DNA of 22,831 nucleotides from a virus: IMG/VR virus record IMGVR_UViG_3300043468_001861, positions 1 to 22,831 of that record. The stretch is one strand, 5' to 3'. The notes below the pieces were generated by a model. It made no database searches, was not told the DNA's origin, and saw nothing but the letters and a program-made list of their open reading frames with translations. The position numbers and the translations under genes were made by a program. This document shows, one piece after another, positions 7,740 through 22,831 of this stretch (position 1 is its first letter; each line of letters begins with the position of its first letter).

Positions 7740-8761
7740 TGGGTGGCAAAGGACCTAAAAAACCAAAGATGCAGCCGGTGCCCGAGGCCGCCGAGCCGCT
7801 GGACTATGATAAAATGTTCAAGGCAGCGCGGGAGAACTCGCGCCTCATCAGTCAGGACCAGATCGACCAACTCAAATCGGCCTATCCCGAGTTTGAAAAG
7901 CTCCAACTCGGCACGATTGATAAAGTCTCAGCCAACCTCAACAACGAATCCTACCGCGAGGCCAAGTCCGGACTGGATGCGGTAGACCCCCGCAACAACG
8001 CAATCTCGAGGCAACTTAACGCCTCCGCCCTAGCCGATCTTCAACTCGGACGCGCTTTAAGCCCCGAGCAAGAACGCGCCGCCACCCAAGCTGCCCGGGC
8101 CGGAATGTCCGCCCGTGGCCTCGGCGTCGGCAACGCTGCCCTTGCCGCCGAAGTGCTCAACCGTGACGCCTACGCCAGCCAGCGCGAAGCGCAACGCCGC
8201 ACATTTGCAGGCGCTGTCATGGCCGACACGAATCAGACCGCCCTCAATGTCGCCAACCAGCGAATGAACTACGACCCCTACCAGAGGGCCTTTGCCCCCG
8301 GAGCCTCCTTCGGGCAAGGGCTGAGTGGCCAAGTGGGCGGAATGGTCGGCCAAGCCTACGGAACAGCTCTTAATACAGTTACAAACACAAATTCATTTAA
8401 CGCCAACATGCTTGAATCCCGCCGCAACACGGTGCAAAACAACAACGCCGCCCTCCAAAGCGCCTACATGGGAGCCAAGGCCAGCGAAAATGCCGCTAAC
8501 ATGGGCCTCCAGGGAGCCGCCATGGGAGCCAGCGCCGTCGTCGGAGCCGCCGCCGCCGCTTGCTGGATCGCCCGCGCCGCTTTCGGCACGGCCACCGCCC
8601 GGTGGAAGGACTACCGCCGCGCCATGCTCCGCCATGCCAGCGACCGCACCATCCGACTCTACTGCCAGCACGGCCAAGCCATCGCCGCCGCAATCACCAC
8701 CCCCCTCCGCCGCCTCGCCGCCCGCCTCACACTCCGCACACTTGAATGGTCCTGGAACTAA
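7739..8761 (+). CDS. Probable internal virion protein (340 aa)
   Basis: The protein is 340 residues. The N terminus is short and basic (MGGKGPKKPKMQ). Long Gln/Asn/Ala-rich helices follow (about 20-260, for example NSRLISQDQIDQLKSAYPEF and RNNAISRQLNASALADLQLG), then a Gly/Ala-rich hydrophobic stretch (about 250-275, GLQGAAMGASAVVGAAAAAC). A basic tail begins at Cys275: CWIARAAFGTATARWKDYRR. A Cys-Trp-Ile-Ala-Arg...Phe-Gly...Arg-Trp tail of this kind recurs at the ends of phage proteins in my experience, with unknown role. Helical Asn/Gln-rich proteins next to tail genes are often ejected or internal virion proteins. The start at 7739 overlaps the upstream stop. The last 16 bases overlap the YcaO gene, coupling virion and modification genes. 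Confidence 0.65.
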   Translation: MGGKGPKKPKMQPVPEAAEPLDYDKMFKAARENSRLISQDQIDQLKSAYPEFEKLQLGTIDKVSANLNNESYREAKSGLDAVDPRNNAISRQLNASALADLQLGRALSPEQERAATQAARAGMSARGLGVGNAALAAEVLNRDAYASQREAQRRTFAGAVMADTNQTALNVANQRMNYDPYQRAFAPGASFGQGLSGQVGGMVGQAYGTALNTVTNTNSFNANMLESRRNTVQNNNAALQSAYMGAKASENAANMGLQGAAMGASAVVGAAAAACWIARAAFGTATARWKDYRRAMLRHASDRTIRLYCQHGQAIAAAITTPLRRLAARLTLRTLEWSWN

Positions 8762-9918
8762 CAGAGAAAATCCGGCTCGAAGGAGCCCAACGCGCCTGCA
8801 CGCCAGAAGAAACTTTGGATCGTATGCGCCCGCATTTCCACACCGCAGGCATTACCCGCCTCGCCGAGATCACCGGGCTCGACCGCATCGGCATTTGTGT
8901 GGCTCAGTGCATGCGGCCCGACGCCATCGTTCTGGCCGTGGATTCCGGTAAAGGAGCCACCATCGAAGCCGCCAAATGCTCGGCCATGATGGAGGGCTTC
9001 GAGCGCCATGTCGGTGAAACCAGCCGCCCGCCCCACACCCTGGCCTCTGCCGCCCAACTCGGCGACCTCGCCGAGACCCGCTTGCCCATGATCAAAGGCG
9101 CGGTCTTCCACCCCTATGCCGTCATGCCCTGGACCGAGGTTTTGGGTCTGCGCAGCGGAGCGCCCCGCATGGTGCCCACCGACGCCGTGCGACTCATCGC
9201 CCGCCCCGATCCCGCTCCGCTGACCAGCCTGCCATTTGCCTACACCAGCAACGGCCTTTCCTCTGGCAACACTTACGCCGAGGCCGTCGCCGGGGGGCTC
9301 TACGAGTGCATAGAGCGCGACTGCACCGGCATCGCCCAGCGCCGCTTGCAGGATTTTCCACGCGTCGATCTCGACACCATCACCGACCCCACCGTCGCCC
9401 GCCTCGTCCGCACCCTGCGCGAGGCCGATGTCACCCCGGTCCTCATCGATGTCACCAGCGACATCGGCGTGCCCGCCTACATTTGCTACCTCATCGACTG
9501 CGACAAAGGATTTGGCGTCAACAAAGGCTACGCCGCCCACCTCGACCCCGCCATCGCTCAAGCCCGCGCCATCACCGAGACCATCCAAGCCCGCGCCGTC
9601 TGGATCGCTGGGAGCCGAGACGATTTCTTCCACCACCTCCACGAGAAGGTCAAATCCACCGACTCCGCTGCGGTCCTCGCCCGCCTCTACAAGTCCGCCA
9701 CCATCAGCGCCAACGCCCACCACGACCGCTCCGGCGAGACCTTTGAGGAGGACATCGACACCCTCCTCTCGATGCTCGAAGCCGCCGACATCCCCGAGCC
9801 GCTGGTTTACGAATTTGAACACCCCTATCCCTGCTCGGTCGTGCGAGTCATCGTGCCGACCCTCGAAGGCTACACCTTCGACTACGCCCAACCCGGCCCC
9901 CGCGCTCTTTCCAAATGA
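8746..9918 (+). CDS. ycaO: YcaO-family cyclodehydratase, TfuA-associated (putative thioamidase)
   Basis: The protein is 390 residues, about the usual length for stand-alone YcaO. The ATP/Mg-binding signatures are in order: SGKGATIEAAKCSAMMEGFE then Arg87 (Glu83, Glu86); SNGLSSGNTYAEAVAGGLYE then CIERD (Glu187, Glu190, Arg191); and RAITETIQARAVWIAGSRDD (Glu278, Gln281, Arg291). YcaO enzymes phosphorylate a peptide backbone amide with ATP. Those paired with TfuA install sulfur to give a thioamide. TfuA lies three genes downstream, with a sulfur carrier between, which favours thioamidation over azoline formation. The proline-rich tail of azoline synthetases is absent; this one ends GPRALSK. The ATG at 8746 lies inside the end of the virion gene, and the stop makes an ATGA overlap with the next ORF. 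Base and codon use match the neighbouring phage genes. The substrate is unknown. Ribosomal S12 methylthiotransferase accessory factor is only the family's historical label. Confidence 0.93.
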   Translation: MVLELTEKIRLEGAQRACTPEETLDRMRPHFHTAGITRLAEITGLDRIGICVAQCMRPDAIVLAVDSGKGATIEAAKCSAMMEGFERHVGETSRPPHTLASAAQLGDLAETRLPMIKGAVFHPYAVMPWTEVLGLRSGAPRMVPTDAVRLIARPDPAPLTSLPFAYTSNGLSSGNTYAEAVAGGLYECIERDCTGIAQRRLQDFPRVDLDTITDPTVARLVRTLREADVTPVLIDVTSDIGVPAYICYLIDCDKGFGVNKGYAAHLDPAIAQARAITETIQARAVWIAGSRDDFFHHLHEKVKSTDSAAVLARLYKSATISANAHHDRSGETFEEDIDTLLSMLEAADIPEPLVYEFEHPYPCSVVRVIVPTLEGYTFDYAQPGPRALSK

Positions 9919-10133
9919 CACCACAGCTCATCGCCTACCCGCCCACCCACGAAACGACTTACCATTACCGCATCGACGGCATTGAGCATTTGTCGCCGTG
10001 CGATGTGCGAATTTTGTTTCGAGACGGGAAATTTATCCGCACGGCCCTGCCTTTTCCCGAACCCTACGACTTAGAGCATTGGAAAATCCTCGGTCTGGTC
10101 GCCCAAGAAATCGAAAAATTCGCATCCAAATGA
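9915..10133 (+). CDS. Unknown 72-aa protein of the thioamidation cassette
   Basis: The protein is 72 residues, probably a small beta-beta-alpha unit. It has beta-like stretches (TTYHYRIDGIEHL; CDVRILFRDGKFIRTALPF), then an amphipathic helix (DLEHWKILGLVAQEIEKFAS). It has one Cys and no signal peptide or membrane segment. I recognise no family. Its ATG overlaps the YcaO stop and its TGA overlaps the sulfur-carrier start (ATGA at 9915 and 10130), so it is translated with the cassette. It could be a substrate-docking factor, a subunit that pairs with YcaO or TfuA, or the modification target. The sequence does not decide between these, and it lacks the leader/core look of a typical RiPP precursor. 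Confidence 0.7.
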   Translation: MTPQLIAYPPTHETTYHYRIDGIEHLSPCDVRILFRDGKFIRTALPFPEPYDLEHWKILGLVAQEIEKFASK

Positions 10134-10396
10134 CACTCAAAGTTGCTGACTTCCACACCCGCTTCACCGACGGCCTCCGCGAGATCATTTCCCCTGCGAA
10201 ATCCATGGAGGAACTCATGGATCACTTGGCAAAAATTTTCCCAGCCTACCACGCCGCCGTTTACTCCGACGGCAAAATCCCACGCTTTTACATAGTTTTC
10301 CGCAACGACGACGACATCCGCTACCTCGATGGCATGAAGACCTCCCTCTCCGAAAACGATACCGTCACCATCATGACCGCATTCGCCGGAGGCTAA
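10130..10396 (+). CDS. MoaD/ThiS-like sulfur-carrier protein
   Basis: The protein is 88 residues with the ubiquitin-like sulfur-carrier pattern. An N-terminal strand comes first, then a helix (SMEELMDHLAKIFPAYHAAV, about 25-44) and strands (RFYIVFRND). The IRYLDGMKTSLSENDTVTIM segment (63-82) closely follows the MoaD/CysO consensus, and a free C-terminal Gly87-Gly88 ends AFAGG. In this family the terminal Gly is adenylated by an E1-like enzyme and converted to a thiocarboxylate that donates sulfide. Encoded between YcaO and TfuA, it is the expected sulfur donor for thioamidation. The ATG at 10130 overlaps the previous TGA, and TfuA starts three bases after its TAA. It could instead serve molybdopterin or cysteine synthesis, but no such genes are nearby. 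No charging enzyme is in the window. Confidence 0.88.
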   Translation: MTLKVADFHTRFTDGLREIISPAKSMEELMDHLAKIFPAYHAAVYSDGKIPRFYIVFRNDDDIRYLDGMKTSLSENDTVTIMTAFAGG

Positions 10397-10399
10397 CCC

Positions 10400-11419
10400 A
10401 TGAAAATCTTTTTCGGCCCCACACGCCCCAGCAACATCCCCGCCGATACCGACCTCCGGCCCCCGGCGCAGCAAGGCGACATCGCCGCCGCCGCGCTCGA
10501 AGGGCCAGACACCCTCATTCTCCTCGACGGATTCTTTCACCAAAGCCTCGCGCCGTGGCATAAGGAAATCCTCTTCGCCATCGAGCAGGGTTGCCGCGTC
10601 ATTGGCGCAGGCAGCCTCGGAGCCCTCCGCGCTGTCGAGTGCGCCCGCTACGGAGCCGAGCCCGTCGGCCTCATCGCCGAATGGTATGCCGACGGCACCT
10701 GCACCGACGACGCCGATGTCGCCGTCGCCCACGGCCCCGCCAGCGAGGACTACAAAAGCTACACCATCCCCTTGGTGAACATCCGCGCCACGCTCGACGC
10801 CCTCTCCGCCGATGGGTTCCTCCCCACCGCCGAAGCCCGCAAGCACCTCGCTACCATCTCCCGCATCTACTACCCCGAGCGCACCTGGTCCGCCATTGAG
10901 GCCGTGCTACCGGCATTGGATTTCCAAGCACTCAAGCACAACCTCATCGATCAAAAAGCCAAAGACGCCGAAGCCGCCATCCGGCACGCCCAGCAAGCCC
11001 CGCCGCCCGCCACCCGCGATCTCCCCCGGCACATCCACACCGCCTATTTCACCGCCCTCCTCGCCAACGACCTCCCCTCCGCATCCGGCCAACGCCAGCA
11101 CCACCTCGCCAGCGAGACCGACCGCACCCTCGCCACCGACCGCCACCTCGTCGCCGAACTCGCCCAACTCCTCGGCATCGTCACCACCCCCGAGGACATC
11201 TTCGCCGCCAGCACCCGCATGTGGCACCGACTCGGCATCACCGATTCCGCCGCCGCCCAATCCTGGCTCAACGCCAATGCCTGGACGGACCAGCAATGGT
11301 TCGCCCACGCCCAGCGCGAAGCCCTCCGCCAAGCCGCCCGCGATTGGCACAACGCCACCGGAGCCTGCCTCGACACCGTCCCCCTCACCCTCGCCCACAA
11401 CCTCCTCAACCCCGCCTAA
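10400..11419 (+). CDS. tfuA: TfuA-like protein (ThiS-thiocarboxylate hydrolase partner of YcaO)
   Basis: The protein is 339 residues. The N-terminal TfuA domain is clear: FFGPTRPSNIPA, PPAQQGDIAAAALEGPDTLI, LDGFFHQSLAPWHKEIL (Asp43, Lys55), GAGSLGALRAVECARYGAEP (Ser72), then YADGTCTDDADVAVAHGP. Characterised TfuA proteins hydrolyse thiocarboxylated ThiS with a Ser-Lys pair and help YcaO bind its substrate. Ser72 and Lys55 are my candidates for that pair. The remaining 200 residues (about 140-339) are helical and Ala/His-rich and may dock the partner or substrate. The gene starts three bases after the sulfur-carrier stop and is followed three bases later by a virion-type gene; both junctions read TAACCCATG. 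Wobble use is like the rest of the late operon, so any transfer is not recent by this measure. Confidence 0.92.
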   Translation: MKIFFGPTRPSNIPADTDLRPPAQQGDIAAAALEGPDTLILLDGFFHQSLAPWHKEILFAIEQGCRVIGAGSLGALRAVECARYGAEPVGLIAEWYADGTCTDDADVAVAHGPASEDYKSYTIPLVNIRATLDALSADGFLPTAEARKHLATISRIYYPERTWSAIEAVLPALDFQALKHNLIDQKAKDAEAAIRHAQQAPPPATRDLPRHIHTAYFTALLANDLPSASGQRQHHLASETDRTLATDRHLVAELAQLLGIVTTPEDIFAASTRMWHRLGITDSAAAQSWLNANAWTDQQWFAHAQREALRQAARDWHNATGACLDTVPLTLAHNLLNPA

Positions 11420-11422
11420 CCC

Positions 11423-11944
11423 ATGCAATACGCCCCCGCCGTCACCGACCGCTCCGCCGAGATTTACGCCCAAGGAGCCAACAACGCCACGAACATCCGA
11501 GCCCAAGGCCAAGCCAACTTCCAAAACTCCCTCACCTCGTCCTTCAACACCGCCATGGGGATGGTGAATAGCAATATTCAAAAATCCGAAGAAAACCGCA
11601 TCGCCTCGGACGGCGCCAACGCCAAGTTCGACATGCTTAAGGATTACAAAAAAACCGACGGGCAGCCCCTTTTCACTCAAGAAACCATCGATAAATTCGA
11701 CACCATGCCGCTTGGCAAACGGCAAGGCATGGTCTCAACGGCTGAATCTGTCATGGATCACGACCTCAAGCGCTGGATGTATCAGACCCAATACAACGCC
11801 CAAGCCAACCGCGTGAACGCTAACATGCTCGCCCAGCAACCTGCTCCGAATCAGCAGCCCTACACCGGAGTGCCAGCAGCCGCCCCCACAGCCCAGCCGC
11901 AGGCCAATCCCGCCGGCGGGATCAACATGAACTTCGTCAAATAA
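11423..11944 (+). CDS. Probable small internal virion protein (173 aa)
   Basis: The protein is 173 residues. The first 60 or so are Asn/Gln/Ala-rich helix (AEIYAQGANNATNIRAQGQA, then FQNSLTSSFNTAMGMVNSNI), a middle charged helical region follows (about 70-130), and the C terminus is Pro/Ala/Gln-rich and low-complexity (QQPAPNQQPYTGVPAAAPTA). The helical Asn/Gln style resembles the 340-residue protein upstream of the cassette. The two may be functionally related internal virion proteins that became separated by the YcaO-TfuA genes. The ATG follows the TfuA stop by three bases. There is no enzymatic motif. It is a candidate neighbour substrate for thioamidation, on position alone. Confidence 0.6.
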   Translation: MQYAPAVTDRSAEIYAQGANNATNIRAQGQANFQNSLTSSFNTAMGMVNSNIQKSEENRIASDGANAKFDMLKDYKKTDGQPLFTQETIDKFDTMPLGKRQGMVSTAESVMDHDLKRWMYQTQYNAQANRVNANMLAQQPAPNQQPYTGVPAAAPTAQPQANPAGGINMNFVK

Positions 11945-11947
11945 CAT

Positions 11948-12814
11948 ATGGACGACCCCCTCCCCTCCGACCTAGACGCCTTCGCCCAGAACTACAATAT
12001 GCCCGGCGCCGTGCCTCCCCCGCCGGCCAAGGCATCCAAAGGCAACAGCTTTGACTTTGGCAGCATCGTCGTGCAATCCGCCGAGGATTTCGCCCGGTTG
12101 CCAGAGTCCCAAAAGCAACTCCTGCGGAACATGAAGCAGGGCATCCAATACACCCCGCAAGCCGCAGCCGAATTCGTCGAGACCTTCAACACCCGCGTCA
12201 TGGAGCAGTCCACGCCAAAAGCCCAAGCCGAGGCGTCCGCAGCTCAGTTATCGGCCCGCAAAACCCAACTCGATATCGGCAAGCTCGAGCAGGAGGCCAT
12301 CGCCAAGGCCAAAGAGCAGGCCGAGCTCAACACGCGCAAGCAGCTCGTCCTCGAAAAAATCGACAAATACACAACCCCAACAGGCCCAAACTCAACGCTT
12401 TTAACAGACCTTGTGGGCAAGTGGGACGGCACAGCCGGCGCTGCGATGGATTCTGCTGGCTGGGATGACCAACGAGCCGCCCAACGAGCCGATCTCGAGC
12501 GCCTCGTCAACAACGATGTCCTAGAGCTCACCAAATTCCTCAAGCCCGTTTCCCAGGACGAATTGAAATTCCTCAAAAGCATGAGCCCCCGCCTGCACCA
12601 GAACGACACCATCTGGAGGGAATATCTCCTCGACGCCAAGTCCCGCATCGAAGGCATGGGTGGATCCACTTCCGCCCCGCAAACAGCCGCTCCTCAAGCC
12701 GCCCCCGCACAACCCCAACAACCCGCCACCCAAAACATTCGCAAAACTCCAGCAGGCGACCTCATCCAACTTCCCAATGGCAAATACTATCCCGCTCAAT
12801 TCTACCGCCCTTGA
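11948..12814 (+). CDS. Probable virion protein with coiled-coil centre (288 aa)
   Basis: The protein is 288 residues. A Pro/Gly-rich start (about 1-35) is followed by helical segments. A long charged stretch at about 85-140 (KAQAEASAAQLSARKTQLDI, EQEAIAKAKEQAELNTRKQL) has coiled-coil character. The tail from about 235 is Ala/Pro/Gln-rich, ending in a short structured piece (GDLIQLPNGKYYPAQFYRP). No family is recognised. The ATG is three bases after the previous TAA. The 3' end overlaps the proposed start of the giant gene by 38 bases. It fits a small internal or connector protein set preceding a giant ejection protein, as in podovirus-like phages. Confidence 0.6.
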   Translation: MDDPLPSDLDAFAQNYNMPGAVPPPPAKASKGNSFDFGSIVVQSAEDFARLPESQKQLLRNMKQGIQYTPQAAAEFVETFNTRVMEQSTPKAQAEASAAQLSARKTQLDIGKLEQEAIAKAKEQAELNTRKQLVLEKIDKYTTPTGPNSTLLTDLVGKWDGTAGAAMDSAGWDDQRAAQRADLERLVNNDVLELTKFLKPVSQDELKFLKSMSPRLHQNDTIWREYLLDAKSRIEGMGGSTSAPQTAAPQAAPAQPQQPATQNIRKTPAGDLIQLPNGKYYPAQFYRP

Positions 12815-15800
12815 GGACAGGGAATATTCCCAAGATGAAGTAGATGCCATGGCAGCCGCCGAGCTGCCGGTGCAGGACGCCCCCATTCCCCCGAACGCCT
12901 CTACGGCAATCGCCGCAAGCGGAGCGCCTGAACAGACAGGCTCACCCGAACTGATCACCGGGGAGGGGGCTCTTTCTGCCCGTGGACCCGCCATGGGCCC
13001 CGTCGCACAGCTTGAAGATCGTGAATACACGGCCGAAGAAATCGACCTACTTGAGCAAGCCAACCAACCCAAAGGATATACTCAAGACGAGGTGGACAAA
13101 ATGGTCGTCGCCGCCCTTGAAGACCCAAACTACATCCCCACACGCGACGAGTATTTCGACCAAAAGGCCACCAAGGAGCGCCTCAAGGCCCAAGGCAAAA
13201 TCCCCGGCAATGGCGAGCTCGCCGCAAAAGCCGTCGGAGGCTTGTTTGTCAGCGCCTTTGATGCCTTCAACTCCACGCTCTTCTCGCCCGTAGAGACTCT
13301 CGCCAAATCCCCCGCCACGCTCCAGACCGGCATCGGCCGCGCTGCCCTTGGTGCCATGCAGCTCGGAGGCTGGGCCAAGCAGGCTCTGGAAGGCCAGCCT
13401 AAATATCTCAACGAGGCCACGGGAGAGTTTCTTTTTGCCGAGGCGCAAAACCCAATGATCCTCGCCGGGTTCCAAGAGCGATATCCAAATCAACCGATCC
13501 GCCCGACCAACGAGGAGGATCTTAAGGACTACGAATTTCAAAATCACATCAAAGAAAAAGGCATCGACGCTGAGTATCAAGCCCTCGGGCAAAAGACCGC
13601 CCCAACTGAGTTGCTCACCCGCGTGCTTACCGGCCGCAATCAGCAAGAGACGCCCATCGAGTCGCAGGCGCAGGTGCTTGAGATCGCCACCGACCCGACC
13701 AACCTCATCCCCTTCGGCGCCGGTGCAAAAACCCTCGGCCTCTCCCGAGGCATGAAGATCGTCAGTGCCAAGACCGCCAGCGGCATCGAAAAACTCGCAG
13801 GCGGCCTTGTCAAAGGTAACGACATCCTCGCCGAGCGTTTCGCCAGAGTCGTCACCGAAAAGACCGGCGTCAGCCCGCAAAACATCTCTGCCGCTGCAAA
13901 CGCCATGACCTTTGGCCGGAATGTCGGCATCGGCGGCGGTATCGCCATGGGTGCCACAGCCCTCGGAGCCCCGCCAGAAGTCAGCGCCACCATTGCCGGG
14001 TTCTACCCCGCCTACAAAGCAGGGCTCGGCGTGCTCCGCAAGATCGAGACCGGAGCCGGAGCCAGCAAGATCATCCTCCGCGAATCCGCCGACGCCACCA
14101 ATGGCCTGGACCAAGCCGCCCGAGCCGCCGTGTTGGCGAACCCCGCCGTGCCTTCCATTTTCAAAGAAGTCCTCGAGCGCCCAAGTCAGTTCGTGAGCAT
14201 CGAGTCCACGCCCGCCCGCCTCGCTGCAAATCAAGCCCTCTCGCCGCAGATGCGTGCCTTTATGGGCAAGCTCTCAAATCCCGCCATCGTCCAAGCGGTG
14301 CGTGGATCCAGCGCCCTCGCCACAGGTGCCGCAAAAGGTGCCGCAGCAAATGTTCCTTTCGCCCTCCTTGCAGCCAATGCCGGTCAGGACGAAGACGCCG
14401 CCGCCATGCTCGCCATGGGCGGAACCTTCGGCGCCCTGGGCGGAGGAGTGGACCGCTTCACCGGCCTCCAGCAACGCCGCCAACAAGCCGCCCTCAGCGA
14501 TGTGTCCCGCATGCTCGTCGATATCGAACTCAACGGCGGAGATGTCGGAAAAATGATGGCCACGCAGACGCCTGACAACCTCGTCAGGCTCGCCGCCATG
14601 CAGGGCACCTTCCGCAACGGTCTCGACTTCGTTCCCCTCAGCGCCGAGGAATACGCCAAAAATGTAGACGCCCAAGGCGGATCCGGAACCGCCGGCATGT
14701 TTGTGCAGGCCCCACTCGGCGAACGCGCCAAGGTCTTCATCAACCTCGACGCCCGCCGTGGAGGAGTCGAGCCCCACGAATTCGGCCACGCCCTCCTCGC
14801 CAGCGGAGCTCTCGATGGACAGCAAAAATACGCCGCCCGCGCCTGGGTCGATAAAACCTACGGCCCCGAAGGTGTCCAAGCCCGCGCCGCCGAATACGCC
14901 AGCAACATCATCCGAGGCAAAAACGCCAGCGCCTTCCCCGACGGCAACTTCGAGATCAGCCCCGGCACACTCACCGCCGAGATGGAGAACCTCAGCCAAG
15001 GCGGCCTCGCCCGAGGCGACATGGACGGCCTCGACTGGGCCCGCGACGAAATATTTGCTGAAACATTTGCCAAGGCCAGCAACACCATGGATTTCGCCGC
15101 CATCCGCCGAGGAGCCCCCGCCGGAGGCAACATGCTCACCTTCGCCGAGAGCGTCCTCGGAGCCCAAGCCCGCTCCCTCAGCGCCAGCGGTGTGCGCATC
15201 GACCCCCAGACCGGCCAAGCTCTCGACACCCCCGGCAGCCTCTTCAAAGAGAACCCAATCCTCGCCACCGACAAGGCCCTCCTCAACCAGCTCGGCACCT
15301 ACATCAACAACTACCGCCAGTGGGCCAACGACCCCACCCACGAAAAGCCCCGCCCAAACCGCATCGCCCCCAGCGGCCGCGCCAGCGACATCGCCAATAA
15401 CCCCCAGGTCACATTCTACGACCGAGGTGACGGCGTGAAGGCTACCACCTTTGCCACGCAAGACCCCGCCACCGGCCAAGCCATCCTCCGCGACCAGCGC
15501 GACCTCAACAAAGAACACGCCAAGGTCAAAGAGCAGATCCGAAACATCGTCGGCTCTAAACTCATTCCAGACTCCAACCCCGTCCTCGGCCCCAAGAAGA
15601 CCGCAGATGGCCGCGTCACCGTGCGAGGCCGAGTCCTCCCGCCCAGCTTCGATTTCCTTAATGGCTTCATGCCCCACATCCGCGCCTTCGCCCGTCAGTT
15701 CGAGGCCCTCGGAGCCGCTGGCGAGAGCATGCAGGTCCGCTACCACGCCATCGGCAGCGGAGACACCGGCGCCTTCCGAGTCAACCGCCTCGGCAACCTC

Positions 15801-18344
15801 GAAGCCATCACCCGCGAAGTCATCCCATGGGGATGGGAACTCACCAAAGCCGGAAACCTCAACGCCACCGTGCTCGACCTCTCGCAATTCCGCAACCGCG
15901 CCATGCGAGGCATCGCCGAGCGCAACCCCGCCCTTGCCCCCTTCGATTACGACATGGGCAAGATCGAAGCCGACCTCAAGACCTACATGGAGAACCACCG
16001 GCAGGAACTCCCCGGCAACACCAAGATCGGCGACGAGAAGCGAGACGCCATCAACGCCATCCTCGGCATCGCCACCACCAAAAACCGCGAGCGCAACGCC
16101 CTTTCCGGCAGCTTCGGCCCCGGCAGCGCCATCAAACAATTCCGCCTTGACCGCGTAGACGCCGCCGTAGGCACCGGCCGCACCGGCTTCCACTTCGACT
16201 ACGACCGCGCCAACCGCAACTTCATGCCCGACAAGCCAGCCCCCATGCCGGACTTGTCGAGGGATTTGCCAGGGCAGGCCACGCCGGATGCGGCAGGACC
16301 TACAGATGCTCCCGTAGAACAAGGATTCAAAGTTCCCGAGATTTACAAAGTCATCCCCGGTCCAAACGGCAAATCTCGCGTCATCAATGCCGAAGGGAAA
16401 AAAGTCACAGATTATCCGACTCTTGAAAAAGCAATGGCCCGCGCTACGGAGGAAAACAATTTGCTCGCTCCGATGTCTGATCTCAAAAAATTATTCAAAA
16501 GCCGAGAAGACAGGCAGGCCATCACAGATGCTCAGAAACGCATTACTGAAGTTGCAAAAAACAACCCAGAAGCAACCAGGCTGGAAATCCAACGAGATGA
16601 AACCGGCCTGCCTAAAATCGACCTATTGGAAGATTCAGATGGGAATCCAATTTTAGATGAAAAAGGCAATCAAGTGCGTGGCGTGGTATTTGCAAAAAAA
16701 GAATACGAGCTACGCAAGGCGCCCGGCCTTAGCAAGGATGACAACACCGCAGTAAAACAAGGCGTGGCGCTTCTCCTTCCAGAAGCCAAAAGAGTTTTAG
16801 GCATTCCAGCCATTGCCGCCGGGAACGGATGGTATGGACGCATGCGAGATTTCTTGCAGCGTTCTTTCGGCGCAAACATCGAAGTGTTTGGGCAACTCCT
16901 CGGGGCCACATCCGCTCGCACTCCTGTAGATACCAATTTCAAACAGGCGCTTGAAGCCGTGAAACTGGTTGCTCTTGGAAAATACGACGACTTGTTGCAG
17001 CGCTTCGACGCGCATGTCATGGCAATCAAAGCAAAGGCAGACTCAGGTCAACTGAAGACAGAATGGCTTGCGAAAAACCCAAGCAAGCGCGAGTCGATGT
17101 TTGTTCTCAATGATGAGTATCGAAAGGCAATCAATACCTTCAAAGATGTCCCTCTTCGTGAAAACGGAGCAAAATACAACGCAAACTCTCAAAAGGTTCT
17201 GCATGCTCTATACGGCATCTGGCTAAGTCAGACCAAGGGCCCAAAGACTCCAAACTTCGCAGGCAACCTCACTGGGCGGACATTGCGAGCCACCATCGAT
17301 GTGTGGGCAGCACGCAACCTTCGCCGCCTGCTCTACTCGAACAAAATCAAAAAGTGGCGCATCCTGCCAGAGCAGGAGTCCGGTGTGAAATACACCGTGG
17401 ACAAAGACGGAAACTATGGCGGCGACTTTGAATTCGGCCAGCGCATTTACGACGAGGTAGCACGCCAGCTCAATATGAACCCGGACGACCTGCAAGCCGT
17501 CATGTGGTTTGCCGAAAAAGATGTTTGGGAAACGAACGGTTGGACGAACACCGTGGGCGCCGAGAAAAGCTCGTTTGATAAAGAAGCCGGCAAGCTCAAC
17601 CTGGACCGATACCAGATCGGCCTCACCACATTCACAAGCGCCGAAAATTTTGATCCCAAGGTGCAAGAAGCCGAGCGCATCAGCTTCCGAAACGCAGTCA
17701 GAAAAGTTCCCAACCTCGCCGTCTCCCGCATCACCGAATCCAGCGGCCTCTACGGGGGCACGCTGGAGCCGACTTTCGATGTCGAATTCAGCGTCCAGCG
17801 CGATGCCAAGATCGATTCGCAAAACTACCTTGAGCCAACCATCCGAGAAGCCCTCGCCATCGCAGACCGACGCGGGCAGATCGATGTGCTCACCTCGCTC
17901 GTTGTCGATGCGGACCATCCGAACGCACGGCCCATGGTCGAGGTTGGTTTCAAATCACCGGCCAAGCCCGCCGAGATCGACGCCGTCGTCGAAGCATTCA
18001 AAGCAAACGGCATCGACGGCTTCACTATAGCAAAAAACGAACGCGGCGATGTGCTCGGGCTCCGCTCTCAGTATGTGCCAGAAATCTCTGCCCGCTATGA
18101 CACGCTGGACCATTTGGATCCTGCAAAATTTGTGCAGAATGCACTTGCATGGACCAACAGCTCACGAACAGCGCTTGCTCAAATTCAAAACATCGACAAT
18201 GTTAGTTACAGAAAGGAAGGACATGTCTCCTCTGCAATCTATGGAAAAGAAGAATACCGAACCGTCAACCCCGTTGACCTACGCCGAAGCAATGCGGCAG
18301 ATCAATTGGGGCGCCGGAGATCGATCCTTAGCCCCGGATCCTAA
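12777..18344 (+). CDS. Giant polyvalent-type phage protein with zincin motif (1,855 aa)
   Basis: The protein is 1,855 residues. The N terminus has three copies of a short motif: LEDREYSQDEVDAM, LEDREYTAEEIDLL and GYTQDEVDKM. The first lies near residue 12, which supports the ATG at 12777 over a later one at 12848. A helical and membrane-active-looking region (about 150-620) contains Gly/Ala-rich stretches (GIGGGIAMGATALGAPPEVS). A zincin-like motif HEFGH lies at 667-671, with candidate third ligand Glu758 or Glu762 in RDEIFAETFAK. Later segments (about 1180-1780) contain regions such as GPKTPNFAGNLTGRTLRATI then DVWAARNLRR, typical in my recollection of large polyvalent phage or plasmid proteins injected with DNA. 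There is no tape-measure-like coiled coil. An ejected multi-domain protein that acts in the new host is the likely role. The sequence around 16320-17250 is more AT-rich than the rest, hinting at domain acquisition. Confidence 0.8.
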   Translation: MANTIPLNSTALEDREYSQDEVDAMAAAELPVQDAPIPPNASTAIAASGAPEQTGSPELITGEGALSARGPAMGPVAQLEDREYTAEEIDLLEQANQPKGYTQDEVDKMVVAALEDPNYIPTRDEYFDQKATKERLKAQGKIPGNGELAAKAVGGLFVSAFDAFNSTLFSPVETLAKSPATLQTGIGRAALGAMQLGGWAKQALEGQPKYLNEATGEFLFAEAQNPMILAGFQERYPNQPIRPTNEEDLKDYEFQNHIKEKGIDAEYQALGQKTAPTELLTRVLTGRNQQETPIESQAQVLEIATDPTNLIPFGAGAKTLGLSRGMKIVSAKTASGIEKLAGGLVKGNDILAERFARVVTEKTGVSPQNISAAANAMTFGRNVGIGGGIAMGATALGAPPEVSATIAGFYPAYKAGLGVLRKIETGAGASKIILRESADATNGLDQAARAAVLANPAVPSIFKEVLERPSQFVSIESTPARLAANQALSPQMRAFMGKLSNPAIVQAVRGSSALATGAAKGAAANVPFALLAANAGQDEDAAAMLAMGGTFGALGGGVDRFTGLQQRRQQAALSDVSRMLVDIELNGGDVGKMMATQTPDNLVRLAAMQGTFRNGLDFVPLSAEEYAKNVDAQGGSGTAGMFVQAPLGERAKVFINLDARRGGVEPHEFGHALLASGALDGQQKYAARAWVDKTYGPEGVQARAAEYASNIIRGKNASAFPDGNFEISPGTLTAEMENLSQGGLARGDMDGLDWARDEIFAETFAKASNTMDFAAIRRGAPAGGNMLTFAESVLGAQARSLSASGVRIDPQTGQALDTPGSLFKENPILATDKALLNQLGTYINNYRQWANDPTHEKPRPNRIAPSGRASDIANNPQVTFYDRGDGVKATTFATQDPATGQAILRDQRDLNKEHAKVKEQIRNIVGSKLIPDSNPVLGPKKTADGRVTVRGRVLPPSFDFLNGFMPHIRAFARQFEALGAAGESMQVRYHAIGSGDTGAFRVNRLGNLEAITREVIPWGWELTKAGNLNATVLDLSQFRNRAMRGIAERNPALAPFDYDMGKIEADLKTYMENHRQELPGNTKIGDEKRDAINAILGIATTKNRERNALSGSFGPGSAIKQFRLDRVDAAVGTGRTGFHFDYDRANRNFMPDKPAPMPDLSRDLPGQATPDAAGPTDAPVEQGFKVPEIYKVIPGPNGKSRVINAEGKKVTDYPTLEKAMARATEENNLLAPMSDLKKLFKSREDRQAITDAQKRITEVAKNNPEATRLEIQRDETGLPKIDLLEDSDGNPILDEKGNQVRGVVFAKKEYELRKAPGLSKDDNTAVKQGVALLLPEAKRVLGIPAIAAGNGWYGRMRDFLQRSFGANIEVFGQLLGATSARTPVDTNFKQALEAVKLVALGKYDDLLQRFDAHVMAIKAKADSGQLKTEWLAKNPSKRESMFVLNDEYRKAINTFKDVPLRENGAKYNANSQKVLHALYGIWLSQTKGPKTPNFAGNLTGRTLRATIDVWAARNLRRLLYSNKIKKWRILPEQESGVKYTVDKDGNYGGDFEFGQRIYDEVARQLNMNPDDLQAVMWFAEKDVWETNGWTNTVGAEKSSFDKEAGKLNLDRYQIGLTTFTSAENFDPKVQEAERISFRNAVRKVPNLAVSRITESSGLYGGTLEPTFDVEFSVQRDAKIDSQNYLEPTIREALAIADRRGQIDVLTSLVVDADHPNARPMVEVGFKSPAKPAEIDAVVEAFKANGIDGFTIAKNERGDVLGLRSQYVPEISARYDTLDHLDPAKFVQNALAWTNSSRTALAQIQNIDNVSYRKEGHVSSAIYGKEEYRTVNPVDLRRSNAADQLGRRRSILSPGS
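18214..18220 (+). promoter_or_regulatory. Strong Shine-Dalgarno deciding an overlapping start
   Basis: AGGAAGG lies just before the ATG at 18223, with its AGGA core five bases away. Most late genes here lack such a site, so it supports initiation at 18223, inside the 3' end of the giant gene in another frame. Confidence 0.55.
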
Positions 18345-18463: not shown

Positions 18464-18496
18464 AACGCCCCGAGCCAAAAGCCGGGGCGTTTTTTT
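18464..18496 (+). terminator. Intrinsic terminator of the late operon
   Basis: There is a perfect 9-bp stem (AACGCCCCG pairing with CGGGGCGTT) with an AGCCAAAAGC loop, followed by seven T residues. It sits 20 bases after the last rightward late gene and at the 3' end of the leftward integrase gene. The T-run is on the + strand side only, so it stops rightward transcription. Confidence 0.92.
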
Positions 18497-19499
18497 ATAA
18501 CCCCCAAAACCTCTGCGCCTCCGCCTGCCGGACGGCTCGCGCATAGGTTTTGTTCACCATCTGCGGCGACGAGTGCCCGAGGAAAAACGCCGTCTTCCCC
18601 GCATCCTGCCACCTTGCCAAGTGCATCGAGGCCGCTGTGTGGCGCAGGCAATTTTGCGGCCACTCCTCCCACTTCATTTTCTCTGCCAGCGCCGTCCGCC
18701 CGCGCTTGATGAAATCCTCCTCCAAGCAGTCCCAATCCGCCGGCAGATGCCGCCGCAGGGCAGGCAGAATCGGCACATAGCGCTTCCGAGGCACCGGATC
18801 CGTGGACTTGATCTGCGGCACCAAAATCTCCGCCTCCTCCACATGCTCCGGCTTCGCCCGCCACACCTCGCTCGTCCGCATCCCCCCAAAAACTCCCAGC
18901 ACCAACCACGCCCGCAGCCGATTCTTGGATGCTGTCAAATCCAACAACCGCTCCACATTTTTCGGCGTGAGCAAATGGTGCGTGGTCGTCCGCGCAGGCA
19001 CATCAATCTTCAGCACCGGATTCCGCTCCGCCAAATCGTAACGCACCGCCCAGTTCCAAACCAGCCGCAGGTAATCAAAGCCCTGCTTCGCCGTCGTTCC
19101 GGTCCACTCTGGGCGGGTAAGGAACCTGTCGATGTGCCCCGGCTTGATATCGCACAGATCCATCGGCCCATGCTCCGCCACAAATTTCCCCCACCACCAA
19201 AGCAACAGCCGCTTGTGATTTCCCTCCTTCAGCTTCGGCATGCGAACCAGATTAAACTCCCGCCAAACCTGCGCCACGGTCATCCCCGCCGCCTGCTCAA
19301 AAGCCTCCGTCCCTCGGGCCTGTAGCTTCGTCAAAAGAGCATCCCGGTGCAGCGACGCCTCCAAGCGAGTCTGAAAAAAAGTCCGTTTCTCAATGCCATT
19401 GATTCGGGAAAAAACCACATGCTTGGCCGCCCCCCGCACCGTGGCCTCCCGAAGAGTGATCAAGGGCGTGTTGCGTCCTGTTGCGTCCGTTGCGTCCAT
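18495..19499 (-). CDS. int: Tyrosine recombinase (phage integrase)
   Basis: The protein is 334 residues. A core-binding domain spans about 70-165 (MTVAQVWREFNLVRMPKLKE ... HIDRFLTR). The catalytic domain has Arg208 in GGMRTSE, box II as NCLRHTAAS (Arg286, His287), His309 in LGHSSP and the nucleophile Tyr319 in NKTYARAV. It catalyses site-specific recombination between attP and attB. Box II shows Asn283 where many integrases have His. The Asn is unusual but the rest of the site is intact. The gene is leftward and converges on the late operon. Its ATG at 19499 lies about 105 bases from a tRNA-Thr 3'-half attachment site. The first codons (MDATDAT) are made of TTGCGTCC-type repeats that may be integrase arm sites, so binding there could autoregulate it. 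Confidence 0.93.
   Translation of the reverse strand: MDATDATGRNTPLITLREATVRGAAKHVVFSRINGIEKRTFFQTRLEASLHRDALLTKLQARGTEAFEQAAGMTVAQVWREFNLVRMPKLKEGNHKRLLLWWWGKFVAEHGPMDLCDIKPGHIDRFLTRPEWTGTTAKQGFDYLRLVWNWAVRYDLAERNPVLKIDVPARTTTHHLLTPKNVERLLDLTASKNRLRAWLVLGVFGGMRTSEVWRAKPEHVEEAEILVPQIKSTDPVPRKRYVPILPALRRHLPADWDCLEEDFIKRGRTALAEKMKWEEWPQNCLRHTAASMHLARWQDAGKTAFFLGHSSPQMVNKTYARAVRQAEAQRFWGL
19471..19497. repeat. TTGCGTCC repeats, candidate integrase arm sites
   Basis: Three copies of TTGCGTCC start at 19471, 19481 and 19490, covering the first codons of the integrase gene. Related copies lie on the other side of the attachment site (TTGCGCCC at 19688, TTGCGTC at 19699). Same-direction copies flanking a core site are the layout expected of arm-type binding sites. 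This is inferred, not proven. Confidence 0.5.
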
Positions 19500-19554
19500 T
19501 TACCCATTTTCAGCCATTTCCACGAATTTTCAAACATATTGACGAAGAAAGCAG

Positions 19555-19597
19555 AAAAGCCCGCCGAACCAGTATCCATGGGGCTCAGCGGGCTTTT
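19555..19597. terminator. Hairpin AAAAGCCCGC/GCGGGCTTTT next to the att site
   Basis: A perfect 10-bp inverted repeat surrounds a 23-base loop, with T-runs possible on both strands. On the minus strand it lies just past the tRNA-Thr 3' end, where a tRNA terminator would be, so it may be the terminator of the host tRNA gene carried along with the attachment site. Confidence 0.65.
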
Positions 19598-19603
19598 AGA
19601 AGG

Positions 19604-19650
19604 GGAGCCGATGACGAGACTCGAACTCGTGACCTATCGATTACGAATCG
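19604..19650 (-). other. attP: Attachment site: 3' half of tRNA-Thr(CGT)
   Basis: On the minus strand the segment reads, in order, an anticodon loop TTCGTAA (anticodon CGT), the 3' anticodon stem TCGAT, variable AGGTC, T arm ACGAG-TTCGAGT-CTCGT with a perfect stem, acceptor strand CATCGGC, and discriminator T followed by CC. There is no 5' half: no D arm and no GCCGATG acceptor partner is found upstream, and the 5' anticodon stem only partly pairs. A tRNA 3' end beside an integrase gene is the classic core of a tRNA-targeting integration site. Phage-like genes on both sides suggest attP rather than an attL or attR junction. Confidence 0.82.
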
Positions 19651-19711
19651 CAGATGGAGGATTGGTTTTCATTGTTTTGCGAGGGCGTTGCGCCCATGTT
19701 GCGTCAAGGGC

Positions 19712-20113
19712 TTAGTTTTGGCTGAGGGTGGGAAGGGCTTGGCGCATGTAGTGCTGGGCGTGCGGATGGAGGTAGGCGACTTGCTGGGGCGGAGTGGCGA
19801 TGGTGTGGAAATGCTGCTCTTGCACGGTGCCGTCGAGCCATCGGGCTCGGAGGATTTGGACATACAGGCCGTTGGCGGGCCAGCTGTCGCGGTAGCAGCG
19901 CTTGAGCTCGAGGGTGCAGGGGGTGACGCCGACGACATCGCCGTTGAGATCGATCATGGCGCCGCTGGGTGCGCTGTGGATGGTGACGGTGCGGTCAGTG
20001 AATTTGGCTTCCCACTCGCGTTTGCTGGCTTCGGGGTCGATGGTGCTCTTGGGCGTGGCGCAGGCAGTGAGGAACATGGCCGCGAGGGCGAGGAGGTGGA
20101 GTGATGTTTTCAT
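19712..20113 (-). CDS. PEGA-domain lipoprotein
   Basis: The protein is 133 residues. The signal sequence MKTSLHLLALAAMFLTAC ends in lipobox LTAC, so Cys18 would be lipidated. A PEGA-like segment follows (VTIHSAPSGAMIDLNGDVVG then VTPCTLELKR, about residues 47-76). PEGA domains are small surface beta folds found on cell-envelope proteins. The start at 20113 puts the signal at the N terminus, whereas a longer start at 20185 would bury it and overlap the next gene. The position between the attachment site and a regulator is typical of lysogenic conversion (moron) genes, where it could act on the host envelope, for example in superinfection exclusion. That role is inference. Confidence 0.75.
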   Translation of the reverse strand: MKTSLHLLALAAMFLTACATPKSTIDPEASKREWEAKFTDRTVTIHSAPSGAMIDLNGDVVGVTPCTLELKRCYRDSWPANGLYVQILRARWLDGTVQEQHFHTIATPPQQVAYLHPHAQHYMRQALPTLSQN

Positions 20114-20117
20114 TTGG

Positions 20118-20468
20118 TCAGGTCGTGGATTTGCGCCGTCCACCCTTCTGGTAGCGTGCGGTCTTGGGAGTTGAGGATCCACCACCGGAGGTCTCGGTAG
20201 AGGGACGGATCAATTTGCCCTGGGGCGTGGCGTTTCCCGGCTCGTTCATCATCCAGTGGGGGCTGTCGGGCATGGCTTGGCCCATTTTGGATTTGCGGTC
20301 TTCTTCCATCATGGTGCGGATGGCTTTCTGAACCATCTTGGAAAAATCGGTGGGGCAGTAGGCGTTTTCTGGCTTGGCGTTGTGCTCTTCGACCATTTTT
20401 TTCAAATAGTCGTGGAGCTCTTTTGGCATCGAAATATTCACTTTCGAGGCGCCGGTTTTCGTTTTCAT
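20118..20468 (-). CDS. Ribbon-helix-helix-type regulator (116 aa)
   Basis: The protein is 116 residues. The N-terminal part (SKVNISMPKELHDYLKKMVE, then CPTDFSKMVQKAIRTMMEE) fits a ribbon-helix-helix fold: a strand KVNISMP, a helix, a loop and a second helix. Such proteins dimerise and bind operators through the strand. The C-terminal 50 residues are Pro/Gly/Ser- and Lys-rich and look disordered. The start at 20468 was chosen because the fold begins soon after it. An upstream in-frame ATG at 20504 would put the coding sequence through the AGTAGCACC repeats. It is transcribed divergently from another RHH gene at 20628 and is a probable repressor or maintenance regulator. Confidence 0.65.
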   Translation of the reverse strand: MKTKTGASKVNISMPKELHDYLKKMVEEHNAKPENAYCPTDFSKMVQKAIRTMMEEDRKSKMGQAMPDSPHWMMNEPGNATPQGKLIRPSTETSGGGSSTPKTARYQKGGRRKSTT

Positions 20469-20474
20469 ATTCCC

Positions 20475-20627
20475 ACTAGTAGCACCAAATACTACCGAGT
20501 GCAAAAATAATTTTTGACTCGCCGAGCTAGTGTTTATGGGCGTGTCAAGTGTTTTTTTCGTATGGGGTGATCACCCCATTTATTTTTTTTCTTTACCGAG
20601 TAGCACCAGTTTTATTCAGTAGCACTC
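20475..20627. promoter_or_regulatory. Divergent control region with repeated operator-like motifs
   Basis: This AT-rich gap separates two divergent RHH genes. AGTAGCAC occurs at 20478, 20599 and 20618, and TACCGAGT at 20493 and 20594, next to both starts. A TTGACA-like box (minus strand, 20543-20548) and a TTGACT (plus strand, 20514-20519) are candidate -35 elements, but I see no good -10 partners. The repeats are probable binding sites for one or both RHH proteins. Confidence 0.6.
20562..20579. promoter_or_regulatory. Perfect 18-bp palindrome, candidate operator
   Basis: ATGGGGTGATCACCCCAT is fully self-complementary around GATC. It lies in the middle of the divergent control region. A symmetric dimer-binding site is the simplest reading. 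A T-rich tract follows on the + strand, so a hairpin terminator is an alternative, but no rightward gene ends here. Confidence 0.6.
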
Positions 20628-20801
20628 ATGCAAGGTGCATATGTAAAAATCTCGGTGAGCATGCCGGACGAAATCTACGGCTTTCTCAAAACGAAAAGCA
20701 AAGCGGGCGGGACTCCTATTAGTCGGCTGGTGGCTCAAGCGGTGAGCCGCATGGCGGTGCTGGAGACCAAAGCCAAAACCAAAGGGGGGGCAAGGAAATG
20801 A
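20628..20801 (+). CDS. Arc/MetJ-like ribbon-helix-helix protein (57 aa)
   Basis: The protein is 57 residues. The strand VKISVSMP is followed by helix DEIYGFLKTKSKAGG and helix ISRLVAQAVSRMAVL, the canonical plan of a small RHH repressor of the Arc/Mnt type. The tail is basic (KAKTKGGARK). The ATG at 20628 comes one base after the third AGTAGCAC repeat (20618-20625), so the protein or its divergent partner could block its own expression. Its TGA overlaps the ATG of the excisionase-like gene (ATGA at 20798). Its place at the head of the rightward early operon suits an early-gene repressor or lysis-lysogeny regulator. Confidence 0.72.
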   Translation: MQGAYVKISVSMPDEIYGFLKTKSKAGGTPISRLVAQAVSRMAVLETKAKTKGGARK

Positions 20802-20986
20802 AATCTGCGGGGGAGATCGCAAGTGCTTTGGGTGTGGCAAAGGAGACGATTGAGTCGTGGGCTCGGGACTCAAAGATTCCGGCGTTTAAGGTGGGGCGGA
20901 GCTGGAAATTTATCGAGGCGGATGTGCTGAAGGCTCTGCGGCTGTCGGGGAATGACCTGTCTCGTGCGATGGGGAGGGCGGCCTGA
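20798..20986 (+). CDS. Excisionase/MerR-type HTH protein (62 aa)
   Basis: The protein is 62 residues and single-domain. SAGEIASALGVAKETIESWA then IPAFKVGRSWKFIEADV is the pattern of the helix-turn-helix family 17 (excisionase or MerR-like): a helix-turn-helix followed by a small wing ending in a strand with Trp-Lys-Phe. Phage excisionases of this type bend attachment-site DNA to favour excision; others regulate transcription. The gene follows an RHH regulator and lies about 1.1 kb from the attachment site, which fits an excisionase or a regulator. The TGA and next ATG overlap by one base (TGATG). Confidence 0.75.
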   Translation: MKSAGEIASALGVAKETIESWARDSKIPAFKVGRSWKFIEADVLKALRLSGNDLSRAMGRAA

Positions 20987-21126
20987 TGAAACTCTGGCAC
21001 TGCCTGGCGAATGGGATCTTCGGGCCTTTTGGGGACTACATCTTGGCGGCGACCCCTGCGGAGGCGCGGCTGAAATTTTACAGGGAACACAAGTGCACAC
21101 CCACTCGGGTGGTGCTGGAGAGATAA
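20986..21126 (+). CDS. Small unknown early protein (46 aa)
   Basis: The protein is 46 residues, MKLWHCLANGIFGPFGDYIL then AATPAEARLKFYREHKCTPT and a basic end. No family is recognised. It starts by one-base overlap with the HTH gene and ends five bases before the next ATG, consistent with a tightly packed early operon. Codon use is G-rich like its neighbours. Confidence 0.5.
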   Translation: MKLWHCLANGIFGPFGDYILAATPAEARLKFYREHKCTPTRVVLER

Positions 21127-21131
21127 TTTTT

Positions 21132-21254
21132 ATGGAACACGAAGCAATAGTGCGTCAGTTGCAGTTCGCGTGGGAATTTGCCCTCGCTGTCGGCCCAGCC
21201 GTTGTGCTGGGGGTCGCAACCTACTGGGTCACCACATGGGGGGAGGCACGATGA
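21132..21254 (+). CDS. Small membrane protein (40 aa)
   Basis: The protein is 40 residues with a single transmembrane segment (FALAVGPAVVLGVATYWVTT, about 16-35) and a short charged N terminus. Its function is unknown. The ATG at 21132 follows the previous stop by five bases, and its TGA forms an ATGA overlap with the next gene. Tiny early membrane proteins are common in phages and sometimes act on host envelope functions. Confidence 0.5.
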   Translation: MEHEAIVRQLQFAWEFALAVGPAVVLGVATYWVTTWGEAR

Positions 21255-21514: not shown

Positions 21515-21738
21515 GCGGGATTAACCACAGAGGACACAGAGAACACGGAGGGTGGACTCCCGTTGTGGAGGAGCTGCCGGATGAGGAGACGAGTGTGATC
21601 GTGGCTACGGATGATGGGCATGTGGATGCCGGTTTCTTGCTCGAGGGCAAATGGCGCTGGCTGGATGCGGGGCTCATCAAGGTGGGTGTGTCGCATTGGA
21701 TGGATTTCCCAGAACCGCCGCAGGAGGTCTCGAAATGA
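21511..21738 (+). CDS. DUF551-like protein with a repeat-derived N terminus
   Basis: The protein is 75 residues. Residues 15-70 match the DUF551 pattern: GGWTPVVEELPDEETSVIVA, then a Gly-rich middle, KWRWLD, and VSHWMDFPEPP. DUF551 proteins are small and common in phages; their function is unknown. Residues 4-12 (INHRGHREH) come from the dispersed CACAGAGG-type repeat (21522-21552) that lies in frame right after the start. The repeat has been absorbed into the coding region without breaking it. The four-base overlaps at both ends keep it in the operon. Confidence 0.72.
   Translation: MSGINHRGHREHGGWTPVVEELPDEETSVIVATDDGHVDAGFLLEGKWRWLDAGLIKVGVSHWMDFPEPPQEVSK
21522..21552 (+). repeat. Dispersed CACAGAGG-type repeat, copy 2
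   Basis: TAACCACAGAGGACACAGAG followed by AACACGGAGGG is nearly identical to 1513-1542. It lies inside the start of the DUF551-like gene and supplies part of its N terminus. Confidence 0.8.
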
Positions 21739-21902
21739 GTGGCTGGGCGGCGATCTCGATGGCGGTGCTCACGCTGGGCAGTTGCTGGGCCAGCTATTGC
21801 CTCGGGCAACGGGACATTCTGATTCGGCTCCGCAAGCTGCGGGAGAAGGAAGACCGCTGGCGTGAGTGGGATGCGAACAACTTGGAGGATTTTGAGGATT
21901 AA
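21735..21902 (+). CDS. Small membrane-anchored protein (55 aa)
   Basis: The protein is 55 residues. The N-terminal hydrophobic segment is WAAISMAVLTLGSCWASYCL (about 4-23). The rest is a charged helix (LIRLRKLREKEDRWREWDAN), ending in acidic residues. A type of membrane anchor plus cytoplasmic coiled helix is likely. The family is unknown. It starts with an ATGA overlap with the DUF551-like gene and ends five bases before the ATPase gene. Confidence 0.55.
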   Translation: MSGWAAISMAVLTLGSCWASYCLGQRDILIRLRKLREKEDRWREWDANNLEDFED

Positions 21903-21907
21903 ACTTA

Positions 21908-22831
21908 TGAAACTGAACATAGTAACAGGAAAACTACAGCGGGCCCAGCGGGTCTGCTTTTATGGGGTGGAGAGCGTTGGGAAGACTACGCTGGCCGCCA
22001 AAATGCCGCAGCCGGTCTTTCTCGATGTGGAGAAGGGGACGGCGCACCTGGATGTGCCTCGGCAGGAGATCGGGTCTTGGGCGGAGCTGCTGGAGGTGGT
22101 GCGGGAGCTGGCCTCGGGGAGCTATGGATACAAGACGGTGGTGCTGGATTCCATCGACTGGGCGGAGCGCCTGTGTATCGAGGACTTGAAGGCGGAGAAG
22201 AAGATCAAGTCGCTGGAGGAGATTCCGTATGGCAAGGGCTTTACGATGGCCTCGGAGCGGATGGCTCGTTTCCTCAACGATCTGGATCGGCTCATTGATG
22301 CGGGGATTCATGTGGTGCTGATCGGTCACGCTCAGGTGAAGCGGGTGGAGCCGCCGGATCAGGTGCAAGCCTATGATCGCTATGAGCTAAAGCTCATCAA
22401 GCAGACGGGGCCGCTGGTGAAAGAATGGGTGGACCACCTTTTCTTTCTTAATTTCAAGACTCGCATTGTCGAGAGCGAGTCGGGCAAGGCCAAGGGCCGC
22501 GGTGGCAAGGAGCGGGTGCTCTTTACGACGCATGCGGCGGCTTACGATGCGAAGACTCGCTCGGAGCTGGCGGATGAGTTGCCGCTCGAATACTCGAGCA
22601 TTTCCTCCCTTTTCGGGGGGGTGAAGGCTCCGGTGGTGGCTGCGGCTGCGGCTTATGCGGCGGCGGAACCTCTGGAGACTTTTCTCGAGCCGCATGCGGA
22701 GGTCGTGAATGCCTGGTTGCTCGCTAAGGGCAAAATCTCGGAGGGCCAGACTTGGCGGGACATGCCGCCGGCGCTTCGGGACCAAGTCTCGGCGAGGCCG
22801 GAGGATTTCCTCAAGGCGGTAACGAAGGCGG
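21908..22831 (+). CDS. Sak4/AAA_24-type P-loop ATPase (partial at 3' end)
   Basis: The frame is open for 308 codons to the window end. Walker A is GVESVGKTTL (about 20-29). Walker B-like TVVLDSIDW lies near residue 80, followed by IPYGKGF (about 107-113) and the AGIHVVLIGHAQVK segment (about 137-150). This is the layout of phage RecA-like ATPases of the AAA_24 or Sak4 group, which support single-strand annealing and recombination during replication. The last 75 residues or so are Ala-rich with short helices. The ATG at 21908 follows the previous stop by five bases. It marks the start of the recombination or replication module, which continues beyond the window. Confidence 0.85.

Follow-up and report, generated by a model that had tools for sequence, protein, structure and literature searches.

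A half tRNA-Thr(CGT) gene beside a tyrosine integrase is the probable attP site of a temperate tailed phage of Spartobacteria-type Verrucomicrobia

The window analysed here is the whole of IMG/VR virus record IMGVR_UViG_3300043468_001861, a stretch of 22,831 nucleotides. Its minus strand carries at 19604-19650 the sequence CGATTCGTAATCGATAGGTCACGAGTTCGAGTCTCGTCATCGGCTCC, which is the 3' part of a tRNA-Thr(CGT) from the anticodon stem to the acceptor end; the 5' part of the tRNA is absent there. ARAGORN reported no complete tRNA in the whole 22.8-kb window, and an Rfam scan of the half tRNA yielded no match, as expected for a fragment. An intrinsic terminator with a 16-bp stem and U tails on both strands follows on the same strand (19555-19597), lying between the half tRNA and a minus-strand gene for a tyrosine integrase of 334 aa (18495-19499; Pfam PF00589, 7.3e-7; PHROG integrase, 4.2e-25), which starts 104 bp downstream of the tRNA end. 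The opposite side holds a PEGA lipoprotein gene, ribbon-helix-helix genes, a small HTH_17 protein that is a candidate excisionase, or directionality factor (20798-20986, plus strand; PF12728, 1.5e-9; PHROG excisionase, 5.3e-6), and a Sak4-like recombination ATPase of the AAA_24 type, an early phage gene beyond the site (21862-22830, plus strand; PF13479, 2.3e-49; PHROG Sak4-like, 1.5e-47). The original prediction had described phage genes on either side of the site, which these Pfam and PHROG matches and relatives aligned across the site bear out.

We found that a 41-bp stretch of the half tRNA has an exact match in only 2 of the 84,980 species genomes of the GTDB species set, a Verrucomicrobia bacterium MAG (L002) and an uncultured Spartobacteria MAG (L003). 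Both matches are the 3' part of an intact tRNA-Thr(CGT), and therefore the similarity is not due to chance. On the minus strand, 19604-19650 agrees at every position with the final 47 nt of these two genes, so that the earlier claim of a tRNA-Thr(CGT) lacking its 5' half and lying next to an integrase holds, and the intact host gene with the same 3' sequence is at hand in both MAGs. Identity with L003 extends over 52 bp (19599-19650) and stops abruptly at the anticodon stem; with L005, a locus described below, it spans 49 bp (19602-19650). In all phages the identity with the host site attB begins with CGATTCG or GATTCG, just outside the anticodon loop, and ends at or just beyond the tRNA end. 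The attP core thus corresponds to 19599-19650 (minus strand), and 19604-19650, proposed earlier as the core, was about right. It is present as a single copy in the window, and likewise once in each phage record examined. Within it, the anticodon loop TTCGTAA (19641-19647, minus strand; anticodon CGT) has the anticodon-stem inverted repeat on both sides and is the putative 7-bp overlap region. Strand exchange most likely takes place across this loop, with exact cleavage positions that we infer from the sequence.

Seventeen IMG/VR loci encode relatives of the integrase, at 96-97% and 67-68% identity, and in every one the same half tRNA lies upstream of the integrase. A search of the INPHARED phage collection gave no match. 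Around the core lie five minus-strand [A/G]CGCAAC repeats, the only ones on that strand in 22.8 kb, which are putative arm-type sites and keep near-fixed distances in phages with integrases down to 68% identical. Counted from GATTCG of the core, the two P-arm sites stand at -55 (ACGCAACA, 19697-19704) and -44 (GCGCAACG, 19686-19693), the same positions as in 18 of 18 attP records and in the attR of L005. The three P'-arm sites stand at +110 (ACGCAACG, 19488-19495), +119 (ACGCAACA, 19479-19486) and +129 (ACGCAACA, 19469-19476), and all three lie over the initial codons of the integrase gene (MDATDATGRN). This set of five positions is that of the 97% group as a whole. In the 68% group the P' sites are found at +112, +121 and +131, with one record shifted by 1 bp so that its first site falls at +113, and the -55 site reads GCGCAAT in three records. 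The integrase is predicted to bind these repeats, and with P' sites lying over its start codon it may regulate its own gene.

The phage-side records contain five variants of the core, and each of them keeps all five T-stem pairs (ACGAG/CTCGT, ACGGG/CCCGT or GCGGG/CCCGT, the last with one G-T pair). Since a phage half tRNA cannot work alone, this compensatory pattern is consistent with selection acting on the tRNA that integration restores, and it suggests that the phage-carried half is kept functional for the host. The acceptor strand of the window, CATCGGC, pairs fully with GCCGATG, which among 13 hosts is present only in L002 and L003; the other 11 have GCCGACG, and phages with the matching CGTCGGC exist. 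This points to the L002/L003 lineage as host of the window phage. The attP site would in this way tie uncultivated phages to their hosts, here Spartobacteria with a CATCGGC-type tRNA-Thr, at fine resolution. To our knowledge, few temperate phages of Verrucomicrobia have been studied, and the records compared here form a clean natural series of att sites in that phylum.

The terminator hairpin at 19555-19597 has a predicted energy of -27.7 kcal/mol (z -4.0 against shuffles), and its symmetry may allow it to act in both directions. It is kept in the close phage relatives L015-L019, and a weaker hairpin lies at the same place in the group with 68%-identical integrases. Nothing like it follows the tRNA in the host DNA at attB (L002 and L003). 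Its presence in close phages and absence from the host site mark the terminator as phage P'-arm DNA outside the shared core; the attachment site had been described before as tRNA 3' half plus terminator, of which the terminator is real and its place within the site is not. Nor is there support for the terminator having been captured from a host: among 213 genomes of the order, a pattern search for a host tRNA with this terminator behind it returned one weakly similar case (G019).

Two related phage records show how the window fits into a whole genome. In the 41,415-bp record G030, window positions 18499-21205 are aligned at 93.6% identity, unbroken across the site; this record has a 127-bp exact end repeat, and its terminase and major head genes lie outside the region shared with the window. 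A second record, G032, runs past the right end of the window and comes round to its left end, with ends that overlap by 1.24 kb at 89%. These alignments and end overlaps indicate that the phage map of about 41 kb is circular or circularly permuted with the site inside it, and that the site is thus attP. The window itself represents about 55% of such a genome, and no end overlap was found in it. The linear virion DNA of a temperate phage also contains an intact attP, so that the circularity of the window molecule does not follow from the site; the suggestion that the window is the circular attP form of the phage goes too far, a circular map being shown for the relative G030 and not for this record.

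Among relatives we found all four junction types, attB, attP, attL and attR, including both ends of one related prophage. In the genome that carries this prophage (G026), contig C94 represents attL: an intact tRNA-Thr(CGT) is followed by the gene of an integrase that shares 60% identity with that of the window, and next by a homologue of the window's giant virion gene. Contig C4 represents attR, with host-type genes, one of which resembles an SMC protein, a bare core fragment and then phage-like genes (PIN domain, DnaB helicase). The arm repeats of the G026 integrase are other than [A/G]CGCAAC. Phage DNA thus lies on both sides of the core in the free form, and in the lysogen G026, whose phage is related to that of the window and not identical with it, a whole tRNA is found at attL and a fragment at attR. 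Locus L005 (genome G002) is an attR that belongs to a different phage, whose ORFs on inspection include sheath-type tail genes. Next to its core (8422-8470) comes the host methyltransferase gene found behind the tRNA in L003, and its P-arm repeat pair has the same spacing as in the window. As this phage ends in the same core, the docking site is common to unrelated phages, and the shared P-arm spacing suggests that the integration module has been exchanged between them. A lysogen of the window's own phage was not found among 26 host-family genomes, whose best integrases are 60-67% identical.

Taken together, the site is very probably the attP of a temperate tailed phage of about 41 kb that integrates at tRNA-Thr(CGT) of Spartobacteria-type Verrucomicrobia. 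The attP reading of the original prediction is strongly supported by the host tRNA, by the single core copy and the lack of an attL/attR pair in the window, and by the phage DNA that runs through the site in relatives. The alternative that survives best, improbable as it is, places the site in chromosomal DNA, as the middle junction of two tandem prophages at one tRNA gene. Tandem arrays at tRNA genes are known (PMC4383910), and their middle junction is identical in sequence to attP, from which sequence alone does not separate it. However, 17 related phage records have the same free-form arrangement, and a 41.3-kb relative has overlapping ends, for which free phage genomes are the simpler explanation. 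We consider it very unlikely that the contig is the edge of an integrated prophage (attL or attR) in which 19604-19650 borders on host DNA at one side. A half tRNA is indeed a hallmark of attR, and the right flank opens with a small PEGA lipoprotein gene that is not a classic phage gene. Yet that flank also carries the excisionase-like and Sak4-like genes, and the alignments refute a prophage edge, as the right flank is 87-97% identical to other phage records past the site. Moreover, in real attR sites (L005, L046) the core is immediately followed by host genes, which is not so in the window. The missing ARAGORN call might speak for a decayed remnant of a tRNA, or for a chance likeness to one, that plays no part in integration. 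Such a reading is scarcely credible in view of the exact match of 41-52 bp with a tRNA gene of the host, the strict placement beside an integrase and arm sites in 18 records, and the compensatory T-stem changes.

With the site as attP, integration can be pictured as follows. The tyrosine integrase would bind the two P and three P' arm-type sites together with core sites formed by the anticodon stem, and would swap strands with that part of the host's tRNA-Thr(CGT) gene which has the identical sequence, most likely across the anticodon loop. The host 5' half and the phage-borne 3' half would then make a complete tRNA-Thr at attL, followed by the phage terminator and the integrase gene, while the original host 3' half would be moved to attR. 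The phage terminator may insulate the integrase gene from the tRNA promoter. In the L002 and L003 hosts a methyltransferase gene lies 8 bp after the tRNA-Thr with no terminator between them. Integration would probably separate this gene from the tRNA promoter and place it behind phage DNA, as seen at the attR of L005. It is possible, though we hold it to be rather doubtful, that lysogeny switches the expression of the host methyltransferase gene, with the phage terminator ending the tRNA transcript at attL. The small predicted lipoprotein with a PEGA domain is encoded next to the P arm (19712-20185, minus strand). In a lysogen its gene would adjoin attR, a typical place for a cargo gene expressed during lysogeny.

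Attachment sites of tyrosine integrases in the anticodon loop of tRNA genes were reportedly described by Williams in 2002. They are a recognised class (PMC4383910, site 'A' in Islander; reviewed in PMC8371274), with which the window shares an attP that carries a 3' tRNA fragment from the anticodon stem, a tRNA restored on integration and arm-type repeats around the core. It has a tRNA-gene fragment with the very sequence of attB in the host tRNA gene, an adjacent tyrosine integrase gene recognised by PF00589 and the PHROG integrase family, and putative arm-type sites on both sides, two P and three P', in 18 records. Only sequence details differ from the class, namely tRNA-Thr(CGT) in Spartobacteria, the [A/G]CGCAAC repeat and a strong terminator after the tRNA end. 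Layouts in which the tRNA is followed by the integrase in this orientation are often negatively autoregulated, as is intS of KplE1 at argW with its 'STI' layout (PMC2951348). As in KplE1, the tRNA, the att core with its arm sites and the integrase gene point in one direction, and P' sites lie over the putative control region of int; the STI order and the P' sites over the start codon match what would be expected of an autoregulated integrase. In contrast to KplE1, the P' sites of the window reach into the opening codons of int itself, with a terminator between tRNA and int. In the tRNA-dependent lysogeny of mycobacteriophages, integration does not restore the tRNA, and one supplied by the phage is needed (PMC10865867). 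The window resembles these phages in its tyrosine integrase and in an attB inside a tRNA gene, but its core of about 50 bp rebuilds the tRNA. The window is not assigned to this type of lysogeny, as the core (49-52 bp) restores the tRNA and no tRNA gene is present in the part of the genome, about 55%, that the window covers. The site is therefore an ordinary, well-preserved case of a known arrangement, and it is the comparative detail that is unusual.

More unusual than the attP site is a YcaO-ThiS-TfuA cassette (8746-11419), which sits among virion genes. It consists of YcaO (8746-9918), a 72-aa ORF (9915-10133), a ThiS-like sulfur carrier (10133-10396) and TfuA (10400-11419). The nearest NCBIfam models include proteins of McrA-glycine thioamidation, with scores below their cut-offs, and the cassette possibly represents a phage-encoded backbone thioamidation system. 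YcaO occurs in 56 IMG/VR loci (48-99% identity). TfuA comes directly after it in every locus that is long enough to show this, and ThiS is confined to the close group; INPHARED contains only one match, at 25% identity. A search of the literature on phage YcaO-TfuA found nothing. The region around the cassette (7800-11900) is variable cargo, as the close relatives G030 and G032 are without YcaO and G001 has it. A 31-bp repeat of the CACAGAGGGCACAGAG type is found near both window ends (1512-1542 and 21522-21552, 93.5% identical to each other), and a similar copy is present in G001; it looks like an interspersed repeat. Finally, a very large virion-associated ORF of 1894 aa (12660-18344) lies just upstream of the integrase and is conserved in relatives and in the G026 prophage.
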